Origin: Candidatus Gastranaerophilales bacterium
Lineage (GTDB): Bacteria > Cyanobacteriota > Vampirovibrionia > Gastranaerophilales > Gastranaerophilaceae
NCBI GenBank assembly: GCA_944323155.1
Contig: CALURL010000010.1
Location: 1 to 64,000, forward strand
Length of the DNA: 64,000 bases
Reading direction: 5' to 3'
Notes under the pieces: model-generated
Databases searched by the model: none
What the model was told of the DNA's origin: nothing
Seen by the model: the letters and a program-made list of their open reading frames with translations, nothing else
Position numbers and translations under genes: made by a program
Part shown: one piece after another, positions 8,908 to 58,679 of the stretch
Numbering within the stretch: the first letter of the stretch is position 1
Layout of the letters: every line of letters starts with the position of its first letter

Positions 8908-8920
8908 AGGCTCTTTTGTT
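8893..8920. terminator. Shared convergent terminator hairpin
   Basis: AACAAAGAGCC-ATAAA-GGCTCTTTTGTT overlaps the stop of the small plus-strand gene and the stop of the pilin-like minus-strand gene. It has T-rich flanks both ways and could end both transcripts. Confidence 0.6.
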
Positions 8921-9695
8921 AATCCGGCTTATCTCCAACATTATATTTCCCGTAAACAAGCTCATCTTTCCCTGACAAAATATTTTTAAGACTTGCAGAA
9001 CCTGTCTTATCCCAGGTAATAGTGTTAATAGATGATGGCTCTATATAAATAGAATAGGCATCTCGTCCAAACTGGTTTGGCCCTTTTACTCCGTTAACAT
9101 CAAAATTTATGATTGCACAGTTTGTTCTGACAACTTCAATTGGTATTTTATTACCGTCCGCATCAAGCTTATAATCACCATTTTCATCAGCCGCGTATCC
9201 AGGCTCAACTCGATGACAGCTAGAATATTGATTTACTCGTATTATTGAGCCATCAATAAGTATAATCATAGGAAAGCCCATACCATAAGCGACATTTGCA
9301 CCCGTACCGTTTGTATAAGCCTCCGTGTATTTAATCTTATAATCTTTTATACAGCCTTTATCTTTTGCAGAAGTACATACTGTCGCACTATTAAAATATT
9401 TTGAGAAATTTTCTGAAACTTCAACAGATGTCTTTGTTACATCAAATAAGGCCGTGTTATCGCCTATAGAACCTAAATCCTGCTGTGCCATTAAAACTGC
9501 ATTAGTTATTGTTGAATAAGTTTTCTTAGTTTGTGCAATAAGCTGCTTATCCTGAAATTTTGTTATTAAAGAAGGTAATGTCATTGCAGCAACAATACCA
9601 ATTATACCGAGTGTAATTAAAACCTCAGCTAATGTAAAAGCTTCATAAAGTTCGAAAAAGGAGACTATGCAGCGTTTGCCCCCCCCCGTAAACAC
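8919..9695 (-). CDS. Type IV pilin-like protein; good start is out of frame across a C9 tract
   Basis: A class III signal segment EAFTLAEVLITLGIIGIVAA marks a type IV pilin or pseudopilin with Ala instead of the usual Gly before the cleaved Phe and Glu at +5. A globular domain of about 220 residues follows, with paired cysteines. The frame as read starts at a GTG (9695) with no ribosome site. An ATG at 9714 with AAGGAG upstream lies in another frame and would stop after 23 codons. Deleting one base from the nine-base G:C run between them joins this ATG to the pilin frame. The gene is therefore switched off, phase-variable, or affected by a homopolymer sequencing error. Confidence 0.8.
   Translation of the reverse strand: MFTGGGKRCIVSFFELYEAFTLAEVLITLGIIGIVAAMTLPSLITKFQDKQLIAQTKKTYSTITNAVLMAQQDLGSIGDNTALFDVTKTSVEVSENFSKYFNSATVCTSAKDKGCIKDYKIKYTEAYTNGTGANVAYGMGFPMIILIDGSIIRVNQYSSCHRVEPGYAADENGDYKLDADGNKIPIEVVRTNCAIINFDVNGVKGPNQFGRDAYSIYIEPSSINTITWDKTGSASLKNILSGKDELVYGKYNVGDKPD
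9679..9687. repeat. Nine-base C:G homopolymer in the pilin start region
   Basis: Nine consecutive C (G on the coding strand) in an AT-rich chromosome. The tract lies between the ATG at 9714 and the pilin reading frame. With 8 or 11 bases the frame would be intact; with 9 it is broken. Confidence 0.9.
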
Positions 9696-9869
9696 TTCTT
9701 AATAAGTTTTTCATACTTTTCTCTCCTTTTTTATTATTATAATTTCATTATAAAAAATTTTTAATGAGTTTGCAAGTGGTATATAAAAAACTATAGCCAT
9801 GGTGGTCAATTTATATTTATTTTTTTATTCATAAAATAATTATGACAATAAATTACGGGAGCAAAAATT

Positions 9870-10739: not shown

Positions 10740-11456
10740 TTACTGAGGAAGTTCAGGGGAAACTCCGCCTTCAGTGCTAGCAGGAGCTTCCGGGGCTGTT
10801 TGAGGAGCGTTTGGATCAGCATTTTCTGCAGGTGCCGGTGCAGGTTGTTCTGCCGGTTTTGCCTGTGCAGGATCCTTTTGTGCATACAATTTAATTTGTA
10901 AATTTATCAACAATATTCGTTTATTCTTGTCATATGGTACAATTTCTATTTTTGAAATATCAAGAAAATGTTCATGCTTATACAGTTCTCTCAGGAAGTT
11001 TTCAAGATTTGAATAGTTTGCCACCATTTCTATATTTAATCTGCAGGCACTATATCTATCTCCGACATTTTTGACGAAATTATCATCTTGAGGATCATAA
11101 TCGTATTTTACAGAACGTGTTTTAATCTTGTTATCTCTTAGAAGTTGTAAAATTTCACCAAATTCATCAGACATAACAGCTTCAGTATCCAAACTCATTT
11201 CTATTGGTTTAAAAAAGGCCTTTAAAACATTAGCTTCTTCTTCCTTCTTTTTCTCAGCGTCAGCCTTCAAACCTGCAAGTTTTCTTTCACTATCAGCCAG
11301 TGATTCTGTTTGTGTTTTATATTGCTCTTGAATATTTAAAATATTTTGAACAACAGGAACTATCTTTGAAACAAGAAAGGCAAAAACAATAACCGTCAAA
11401 ACAAGAATAGCTATTGCAATTTGAAATTTTTTGAAATATATACTATATTTTTCCAC
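10740..11456 (-). CDS. pilO: PilO-like type IV pilus assembly protein
   Basis: A 238-residue inner-membrane protein with one N-terminal membrane segment (about 12-32), a coiled coil (about 33-75) and a ferredoxin-like domain (about 85-190), as in PilO. In type IV pilus systems PilO pairs with PilN to link the cytoplasmic PilM ring to the outer-membrane secretin. The last 40 residues are low-complexity Pro/Ala/Glu (KPAEQPAPAPAEN), longer than usual. It lies 15 bases after the fused pilM-pilN gene in the same operon. PilP and the secretin PilQ are not in the window. Confidence 0.75.
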   Translation of the reverse strand: MEKYSIYFKKFQIAIAILVLTVIVFAFLVSKIVPVVQNILNIQEQYKTQTESLADSERKLAGLKADAEKKKEEEANVLKAFFKPIEMSLDTEAVMSDEFGEILQLLRDNKIKTRSVKYDYDPQDDNFVKNVGDRYSACRLNIEMVANYSNLENFLRELYKHEHFLDISKIEIVPYDKNKRILLINLQIKLYAQKDPAQAKPAEQPAPAPAENADPNAPQTAPEAPASTEGGVSPELPQ

Positions 11457-11471
11457 AGTTATTCTCCTTAC

Positions 11472-13178
11472 TTATTTCCCAAAATTCAATAGAGGTTTAC
11501 CATTCAATAAACCGCCTTTTTTCTCTTCTTCTTTATTTTGTTCCTCAGCTGCTTTTTGGTTAGGATCAGCAGGTGGAGGAGGATTCAATTCAGATTCTGT
11601 CATATTGGTAATTTCAAATTCATAATTTACCGGTCTATTTGGATCAACTTCTACAGCCTCATCAACAGAATCTGTTTTCATCTGCAATTTGTGAAGTCTT
11701 AATTTTGTATCTATTAAAGAATCTTTCATGTTTCTGAAGAAGCGGTAAACATCTTCAACATTTTCAGCCTCACCTTTAATATCAATTTTACCATCCTCTT
11801 TGGTATCAAAATATGTTATCCATAGACTTTTCGGAACAGATTCACCTAGTGCAGAATATGACATAAGCTTAATTCTGTTATTTCCAAGAACCTTTTTAAT
11901 TTCAGCATTAATATCAAAATCATTAAGTTTATTTTGCTCTTCTTGCAAACGTTTAATCTCATTTTGGACATTTTGAACTCTTGTAGTAACTTCATCCAAT
12001 TGAGTTTGTTTTTGTTTTTCAACCATTGGTAAAGCTATATGAGCGACAAATGTCGGGATAAGAATAACTATTGCAATTAAAGCAGAGATATTTCTTGCAG
12101 CAATAGGTGTTAATTCAATTTCTTTATCACCGATTTTAACAGCGACAGGTTCATTGCCGGCATCAGCAGCTACATCTCCGGCTGCTCCTGATGTAGCAAA
12201 ATTAAACTTCATTGGAATTCCACCAGCGTTGCCAGTTGCAACACCGATAGCTTCCATAGAAATTTTATGAGCAGTATCCTCTAATATTTCAAGACTCACA
12301 GGAACAAAATCCTGTTTCTTGTACATATTATTTTCCCAATACAGAACCATGCCATCAACTTGTAGACGACCTGCAAGAATTTCAGCACTTACCATATCGG
12401 TTTCAGATACTATATAAAGTGCATTCGCAGGATAACTCATTAAAGTTATCTGAGCAGAGGCATTAATTGCATTATAAACTTCATCACCTTCCAAAGATCT
12501 GATTGGAACAGGTTCTTCATAAAAATCTATAATATTTTTACCGGACATTGAAAGAATTGAATAGCCGCTCTGATTGACAATCATCAAATTCCATGTGTAA
12601 TTGTCTTTCATCTGTTCTGCTGCTCTGCCAGAAAAAGCAAGAGCTTTTAGAATAGAAGTCAAAGACATTTCAACTCCGACAAGAGTAGCACCAATTTCTG
12701 AAAGTGCTGTTCTTATACTGTCAACTGCTTGTTTTTGTATTGCTGAATAAAATAATTTTCTGCTATCACCAGATTGGTTAATTGCGGAATCACACCAGCT
12801 GACAATCGGTTCATATCGTTTAAATACATACGACTGTTCAACTTCTGATGTTAAAGCTTCAGTAATAGCCTCATCTGCTAAAAGCAATGGTAAATCTTTG
12901 CTGCCAAACAATACCATTGGCATGTTTAATACTACATTACTTTTAGGGTTAATTTTTAATTCTGCAAATAATTCTGACACGCCGTTTTTAAAAGCTTCGT
13001 AGTCAGTTATTTCTCTTAAACCTTCGTTATATTCCAAAGGTCTAAATGCATAATTCTTAACAGATTTAGTAGACATATCCAGTTGAATAAGCTCTAAACC
13101 TATACCAGGTGTAACTGATAAATATACAGTTTCTTTACTTCCCAAACCTAATTGTGATAAAATTTCGTTAATATCCAT
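11472..13178 (-). CDS. Fused PilM-PilN type IV pilus protein
   Basis: A 568-residue protein that appears to join two usually separate proteins. Residues 1 to about 340 form a PilM-like, actin-fold cytoplasmic domain: VYLSVTPGIGLELIQLD at the start, a QKQAVDSIRTALSEIGATLVG segment like the PilM core, then MIVNQSGYSILSMSG. One membrane segment (about 365-388) precedes a coiled coil and a PilN-type domain with WITYFDTKEDGKIDIKGEAE. The C-terminus is Pro/Gln/Glu/Lys rich. PilO follows, in the standard order M-N-O. ATG 13178 is preferred; a TTG at 13184 is in frame. The PilM half is divergent and its nucleotide site is not clearly readable. Confidence 0.75.
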   Translation of the reverse strand: MDINEILSQLGLGSKETVYLSVTPGIGLELIQLDMSTKSVKNYAFRPLEYNEGLREITDYEAFKNGVSELFAELKINPKSNVVLNMPMVLFGSKDLPLLLADEAITEALTSEVEQSYVFKRYEPIVSWCDSAINQSGDSRKLFYSAIQKQAVDSIRTALSEIGATLVGVEMSLTSILKALAFSGRAAEQMKDNYTWNLMIVNQSGYSILSMSGKNIIDFYEEPVPIRSLEGDEVYNAINASAQITLMSYPANALYIVSETDMVSAEILAGRLQVDGMVLYWENNMYKKQDFVPVSLEILEDTAHKISMEAIGVATGNAGGIPMKFNFATSGAAGDVAADAGNEPVAVKIGDKEIELTPIAARNISALIAIVILIPTFVAHIALPMVEKQKQTQLDEVTTRVQNVQNEIKRLQEEQNKLNDFDINAEIKKVLGNNRIKLMSYSALGESVPKSLWITYFDTKEDGKIDIKGEAENVEDVYRFFRNMKDSLIDTKLRLHKLQMKTDSVDEAVEVDPNRPVNYEFEITNMTESELNPPPPADPNQKAAEEQNKEEEKKGGLLNGKPLLNFGK

Positions 13179-13223
13179 ACTCAATTAATTTCTTTTTGTT
13201 CATTATTTACTATCAATGTTTTT

Positions 13224-57983: not shown

Positions 57984-58679
57984 ATGACGAATATCTTTAT
58001 GTATAAAGAAAAAGCTTTTACTTTGGCAGAAATTTTAATTACTTTAGGCATAATTGGAATTGTTGCAGCACTTATACTTCCGACAGTAATCGCTAATTAT
58101 CAAAAGAAAAAAGCTGCTACACAATTAAAAAAATCATATACAAGGCTTGCCGAAGCTATAAGATTATCTGAACTGCAGAATGGAGATAAAGAATACTGGA
58201 TCTACGCATTAAATGGGGAAAACTTTTTTAACACTTATCTTTCCAAATTCATGACTATTAAAAAGGTTACCATAAAAGATTCTAATTTAACTTACTATCT
58301 GATAAACGGAAATCCTTGCACTGAAAACTATTGTACAAAACTTTCTTATATTGGAGTTTTGGCTGATGGTTCATCTGTTATAGTATCGGATACCAATTAT
58401 ATTAGCAACGGAAAATTTGTTGCGATAGATATAAATGGATTAAAAGGACCAAATACTTGCGGCAAAGATTACTTTCCTTTTGCAATACATTATAAATACG
58501 GATTAATTCCTTTTGGATATAAAGATTTTGGATATGGCTATCAACAATTTGGCGATTTCGACAGAAATATTATAACTGGAAATAATATCCATGCTTGCAA
58601 TAAGGATCAGGGCGGCCAATGGTGTGGAGCATTAATTATGATGGATGGCTGGGAAATCAGCAGGGATTACCCATGGTAA
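57984..58679 (+). CDS. Type IV pilin-like protein
   Basis: A 231-residue pilin or pseudopilin with MYKEKAFTLAEILITLGIIG near the start: a short basic leader, Ala at -1 instead of Gly, Phe +1 and Glu +5, then a hydrophobic helix. The globular part contains four to six cysteines (CTENYCTK, HACNKDQGGQWCG), which could form disulfides, in keeping with the VKOR gene. The C-terminus ends WEISRDYPW. Start at 57984 or the in-frame ATG at 57999 are both possible; the first lies seven bases after TATTAT. It overlaps the convergent nif3 gene by 13 bases. Confidence 0.85.
   Translation: MTNIFMYKEKAFTLAEILITLGIIGIVAALILPTVIANYQKKKAATQLKKSYTRLAEAIRLSELQNGDKEYWIYALNGENFFNTYLSKFMTIKKVTIKDSNLTYYLINGNPCTENYCTKLSYIGVLADGSSVIVSDTNYISNGKFVAIDINGLKGPNTCGKDYFPFAIHYKYGLIPFGYKDFGYGYQQFGDFDRNIITGNNIHACNKDQGGQWCGALIMMDGWEISRDYPW

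Follow-up and report, generated by a model that had tools for sequence, protein, structure and literature searches.

The window, by which we mean the whole stretch of 64,000 nucleotides analysed here, is part of a draft genome of 1.79 Mb in 34 contigs (G000) from an uncultured member of the Gastranaerophilales, and has a GC content of 33%. On its minus strand lies a gene for a pilin-like protein in which a run of nine guanines separates a well-made start from the frame of the protein. The features of this locus, its upstream neighbours and a second pilin-like gene are as follows.

8919..9638, minus strand: mature pilin-like protein of 239 aa, first residues FTLAEVLITLGIIG, with its stop at 8921-8919
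9639..9678, minus strand: spacer of 40 nt from the tract to the prepilin motif, open in the pilin frame
9643..9645, minus strand: TGA that ends the ATG frame at tract length 9
9655..9664, minus strand: TCTCCTTTTT, complement of the Shine-Dalgarno region, paired with it in a predicted RNA fold
9679..9687, minus strand: C9 (G9 on the coding strand), putative switch, the sole C/G run of at least six in the window
9688..9714, minus strand: leader frame of 27 nt, MKNLLRSVY (sibling leaders are 24-34 nt)
9712..9714, minus strand: ATG of the leader, in a Shine-Dalgarno, ATG, leader and tract layout common to 69 genes of the genome
9723..9728, minus strand: Shine-Dalgarno sequence AAGGAG
9747..9775, minus strand: putative sigma-70-like promoter TTGCAA-17-TATAAT upstream of the ATG, a consensus match only
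10740-11456, minus strand: GspM/PilO-like gene, upstream neighbour (GspM 5.8e-05, under the family cut-off)
11472-13184, minus strand: PilN-domain gene, upstream neighbour of the pilin (PilN 1.7e-07)
57984..58679, plus strand: second pilin-like gene of the window, with an ordinary short leader and no tract, which serves as an internal comparison

A C/G run of this kind has a Markov expectation of 0.012 per window; A/T runs in the window also reach a maximum of nine. The frame that opens at ATG 9714 reads MKNLLRSVYGGGQTLHSLLFRTL and ends after 23 codons at TGA 9645-9643, and the pilin-like frame, FTLAEVLITLGIIGIVAAMT, runs from 9638 to its stop. The distance from ATG to motif is 76 nt, which is one base too many or two too few, so that tract lengths of 8 or 11 are in frame. 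These observations agree with what the sequence-only reading, an earlier note made from the letters of the window, had described: a C9 tract between a good ATG and a pilin frame, an early stop with nine bases, and a frame restored by the removal of one base. Its claim that the gene is off here likewise fits the assembled tract length of nine. In the mechanical list of open reading frames the pilin frame starts at GTG 9695, which lacks a Shine-Dalgarno sequence.

The predicted RNA fold in which TCTCCTTTTT pairs with the Shine-Dalgarno region is no better than the folds of shuffled sequences. A sequence 3' of the tract, TCTCCTTTT (window 9655-9664), complements the Shine-Dalgarno region and occurs in approximately one third of sibling spacers; a complement of at least 7 bp is present in 22/62 sibling genes compared with 2/62 in the control. 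It could mask the ribosome site, or could merely reflect common ancestry.

The protein has the two features that place a sequence among the type IV pilins and pseudopilins, namely a cleavage motif of the form [G/A]-F-T-L-x-E and a hydrophobic N-terminal helix. It scores 16.8 bits against the prepilin N-terminal family TIGR02532 (cut-off 16.3) and 18.6 against Pfam N_methyl, which is under the cut-off of 21.2, and it weakly matches the type IV pilins 8pfb and 8tj2. A structure model of medium quality (pLDDT 76) has an N-terminal helix of 53 residues (3-55) followed by a beta-rich head; a fold search of this model against the PDB returned no significant match. Judged by their domain matches, the PilN-domain and GspM/PilO-like genes (10740..13184) are probable pilus-assembly neighbours of the pilin. 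Alanine or glycine at position -1 of the motif is the expected prepilin peptidase site, and this residue is Ala in 37 and Gly in 32 of the tract-led pilin genes of the genome (Ala/Gly in 69/69). Because the leader would be removed by prepilin peptidase, the length of tract and spacer should have no effect on the mature protein. By analogy with type IV pilin biology, the glycines coded by the tract should be lost along with the leader, which would free both lengths from structural constraint.

The window gene has many siblings. G000 contains 93 tracts of at least eight G, where approximately 2 are expected, and the window pilin used as a query finds 90 matches. In total, 69 tracts, including that of the window gene, lie between a Shine-Dalgarno and ATG leader and a pilin-like frame (p ~1e-94), in the order Shine-Dalgarno sequence, start codon, open leader, tract, open spacer and FTLAEVL. 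Starts were chosen by Shine-Dalgarno score together with the requirement of an open leader, and all tract lengths are the consensus of draft assemblies. The tract length is 10 in 57 genes, 11 in nine, 12 in two and 9 in the window gene alone, which matches neither the modal OFF length of the genome (10) nor the ON length (11, or 8). Leader plus spacer equals 1 mod 3 in 67/69 genes, giving in-frame lengths of 8 and 11, and nine genes are in frame and 60 out of frame. The common in-frame class spans several combinations of leader and spacer phase, although both vary mod 3, and it is also that of the seven genes that carry poly-C rather than poly-G. The context C-G10-CA is common to the tracts of G000, with G or C on the coding strand and in non-pilin genes too (C before the tract in 72/90, C after it in 83/90). 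The flank consensus is specific to each genome, for example C..C in G224, C..TAAC in G009 and A..CGTTAGG in G005.

The spacers indicate from where translation must reach the pilin. Across the genus, 57/58 genes with a spacer of at least 60 nt have the pilin frame open through the spacer, compared with 0/116 for the two remaining frames; the median of such spacers in G000 is 112 nt. Since the spacers are open solely in the pilin frame, translation enters from the tract. Start codons were counted in 58 OFF genes of G000 taken with an earlier start rule, before the open-leader requirement: between the upstream stop and the motif, 36 have no ATG, GTG or TTG in the pilin frame, and 16 have a start codon 3' of the tract, none of them with a Shine-Dalgarno sequence. 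As a general account, an internal start after the tract was rejected, given that none of the post-tract starts in these 58 genes has a good Shine-Dalgarno sequence. A stop codon follows within 2-6 codons 3' of the tract in most OFF genes. In a few loci (L036, L037, L072, L101, L107 and, in the congener G001, L121) the long spacers between tract and pilin resemble promoters (TTGnnA..TATAAT); that of L121 has TTGTCA-17-TATAAT and an in-frame ATG just 5' of the motif. These sequence matches hint at a second, tract-independent start in the six loci.

The same layout is found in relatives. As a query, the neighbouring gene nadA matches Candidatus Gastranaerophilales MAGs with a maximum identity of 79%. 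At the syntenic site of G001 (L121) there is a pilin of 237 aa, approximately 33% identical to the window pilin and preceded by a Shine-Dalgarno sequence, ATG, 24 nt and G10, one base short; a relative thus keeps a G:C run at this place, as the switching first proposed from the letters would have it. In a second congener (G002, L122) the flanking genes adjoin and no pilin motif was found between them; the locus is hence a gain or a loss. Across the family, 315/383 species have tracts of at least nine G, with a maximum of 176 per genome, and the tract-led pilin layout recurs in at least 8 species, across genera. The pilins in frame number 9/69 in G000, 4/26 in G001, 0/9 in G002, 0/2 in G005, 1/8 in G009, 1/7 in G011, 0/8 in G141 and 0/6 in G224, and a sample of 80 species taken by nadA gave nine tract-led pilins, 0/9 in frame. 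Summed, 15/144 are in frame, compared with one third expected at random (p 1.5e-10), where the 144 combine the eight genomes, some with small samples, and the nine nadA-sample genes, some of which are possibly repeats of listed genomes. The modal tract length is 8 in G009, 10 in G000, G001, G002 and G224, 11 in G005 and G141, and 13 in G011; at modes of 8-10 the gene is one base short, and at modes of 11-13 one base long. Tract-rich genomes contain 46-157 pilin-like genes, compared with 2-3 in tract-free genomes (genera g22 and g52).

One genome, G016, has 89 tracts, yet 0/13 of the loci examined are tract-led pilins. Many of its G10 tracts lie in another repeated sequence (AC/GC-G10-TAAACCGCTCA...; loci L279, L282, L285 and L294), and L282 and L285 have pilins with ordinary starts 600-700 nt downstream of the tract. 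Loss of mismatch repair was considered as a possible cause of the tracts; mutS was found in all 13 genomes checked. The mutS matches of the tract-free genomes G146 and G193 (g22) and G134 and G089 (g52) score 472-568 bits, under the curated cut-off of 641.7, and those of tract-rich genomes are well above it.

Tract length also differs between close copies within a genome. L095 (G11, in frame) and L098 (G10, out of frame) have flanks identical at 76/76 positions, neighbouring copies in L041 carry G10 and G12, and in G001 8/9 pairs whose flanks match at 90% or more of positions have tracts of unequal length. These differences bear on the main rival to phase variation, programmed frameshifting, by which ribosomes, or RNA polymerase, would slip on an unchanging G run to give a set fraction of pilin. 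We regard it as unlikely. It would account for the modal gene being one base short in G000, G001, G002, G009 and G224, a deficit that a -1 shift at G GGG GGG would make good, but in G005, G011 and G141 the modal gene has one base too many, so that no single shift direction fits. A phase common to different leader and spacer classes and the stop close behind the tract in most OFF genes also suit it, whereas near-identical copies differ in tract length, some genes need no shift at all, and the same G10 is in frame in non-pilin genes. The stricter form, a universal programmed -1 ribosomal frameshift cassette, is rejected by the opposite offsets and the length changes between near-identical copies.

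The non-pilin genes offer a comparison at the same length: tracts of 10 are in frame in 5/6 of them compared with 1/57 pilins (Fisher p 5e-6), with an ascertainment slightly unlike that of the pilins in that non-pilin tract genes were recognised by a frame open across the tract. The five in frame encode an NTP-transferase/APH-like protein, a membrane protein, a radical SAM protein, a Mur ligase and a capsule-synthesis-family protein; the sixth gene, L099, encodes a calpain-like secreted protein and has a C10 that puts it out of frame, as in the pilins (frame read by hand). A GT2 gene (C14) and a GT8 gene (G11) are also among the non-pilin tract genes, whose loci, the Mur ligase apart, are L063, L067, L069, L087, L091, L109 and L099. 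Glycosyltransferase, capsule synthesis and NTP-transferase genes are classical contingency functions, and the genes at these seven loci are candidates for further phase-variable genes. In the Mur ligase, G10CA replaces approximately four codons of the tract-free orthologue (L336, G000 C9:39849, compared with L337 of G001) with no change in length between the two forms, which is not obviously a product of simple run expansion. Insertion of a G10 element was rejected on this one orthologue compared, given that codons are replaced without an indel.

The sequence-only reading had named homopolymer error as the main rival explanation, with the real tracts in frame and the assembled ones miscalled. 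For the tract class this is rejected, because if G11 were systematically miscalled as G10, the non-pilin genes that are intact at this length would be broken; moreover, the runs of 8 in G009 are still out of frame, and the sign of the offset is opposite in different genomes. All genomes are draft assemblies and the window tract is known as an assembled length only, so the concern stands for that single tract, but as an account of the whole pattern sequencing or assembly error is very improbable.

Out-of-frame pilin genes are not decaying but under purifying selection. Between pairs of OFF genes the median dN/dS is 0.26 (109 pairs), and L007 (OFF, G10) and L083 (in frame, G11), which are 85% identical, have a dN/dS of 0.11. 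That the frame-broken pilins are dead genes, as the few with truncated bodies might suggest, is the least credible reading, given this dN/dS, the full-length body kept in most OFF genes and the spacers that have remained open in the frame of the pilin.

The explanation that we consider likely is a pilin repertoire that is OFF by default and varies in phase by slipped-strand errors, with the switches in the leader before the cleavage site. Each of approximately 70 pilin-like genes would carry a poly-G or poly-C run in its prepilin leader, ahead of the cleavage site, and slippage of the strands during replication would lengthen or shorten it by one or two bases. A single residue class mod 3 (11 or 8 in G000) would join the Shine-Dalgarno sequence and ATG to the pilin frame, and at the modal length of 10, or at 9 in the window gene, translation would end a few codons past the run. 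Each gene would be ON in a minority of cells and OFF in the rest, reversibly so within a population, whose cells would differ in the set of surface filaments that they display; from the pilins of these filaments prepilin peptidase would have removed the whole leader, tract included. The sequence-only reading had proposed slipped-strand switching for this one protein; the 69 sibling genes and the differences in tract length favour the mechanism, as a genome-wide system rather than a single switched gene. Four hallmarks of SSR contingency loci are present: runs far beyond chance in or before coding regions, a run length that governs read-through, targets that are predicted surface or surface-modifying proteins (pilin-like proteins, GT2, GT8, the capsule-synthesis family and an NTP transferase), and runs that change much faster than their flanks between near-identical copies within genomes.

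The distribution of lengths is narrower than simple drift predicts, with a tight peak at 10 (57/69) and one out-of-frame phase per genome. Speculatively, and from few genomes, the ON length may lie on the side favoured by slippage bias, that is, expansion in short runs and contraction in long ones. It is possible, but doubtful, that run length is governed beyond drift, with the whole repertoire of a genome phase-locked at a mode one base off frame. A repertoire-wide mechanism, either a genome-specific slippage bias or slippage of the ribosome or RNA polymerase on all copies, would then set a common low ON probability, a new kind of one-of-many display.

Frame-switching poly-G in surface genes is classical. 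As in the poly-G/poly-C loci of Neisseria, Campylobacter and Helicobacter, a run of 8-13 G/C lies early in the coding region, its length mod 3 sets ON or OFF, and the targets are surface proteins and glycosyltransferases. In N. meningitidis, 115 genes have confirmed SSR variation (PMC5084427). Unlike in these three genera, most switches here are on one paralogous family of approximately 70 pilin-like genes, the tracts lie in a leader predicted to be removed before assembly, there is one common in-frame length class, to which the modal length does not belong, and the host is an uncultured gut relative of cyanobacteria (Melainabacteria). The opa genes of Neisseria are similar in being a scattered family of surface proteins, each with its own frame-switching repeat in the leader-coding region, where the opa repeat is the pentamer CTCTT. 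The differences are mononucleotide G/C runs instead of pentamers, and approximately 70 pilin-like proteins instead of an outer-membrane repertoire of ~11 genes (PMC3745409). Diversity of type IV pilin at the cell surface is also generated by recombination, as in pilE/pilS of Neisseria and the inversion of Moraxella bovis (PMC11868660). Those systems rely on gene conversion or inversion at a single expression site, whereas here every copy is equipped with start signals and a run of its own. Our search of the open-access literature gave no account of phase variation for Gastranaerophilales or Melainabacteria, for which papers mention pilA and type IV pili in passing only (PMC5877343), and a very large bet-hedging pilin repertoire in Gastranaerophilales appears to be undescribed.

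If the proposed switching is true, few frame-switched repertoires of surface proteins that we know of would be larger than that of these abundant uncultured gut bacteria, which would be similar in number to the 115 variable genes of the meningococcus yet devoted to a single family of filaments. Switching would also explain genomes apparently full of frameshifted pilins, which are prone to pseudogene calls or wrong starts in annotation. Questions of bet-hedging, of evasion of phages or the immune system and of one-of-many expression would become testable from existing metagenomic reads, and the sharp genome-specific modal length and the common phase are new observations for the theory of microsatellite evolution to explain.
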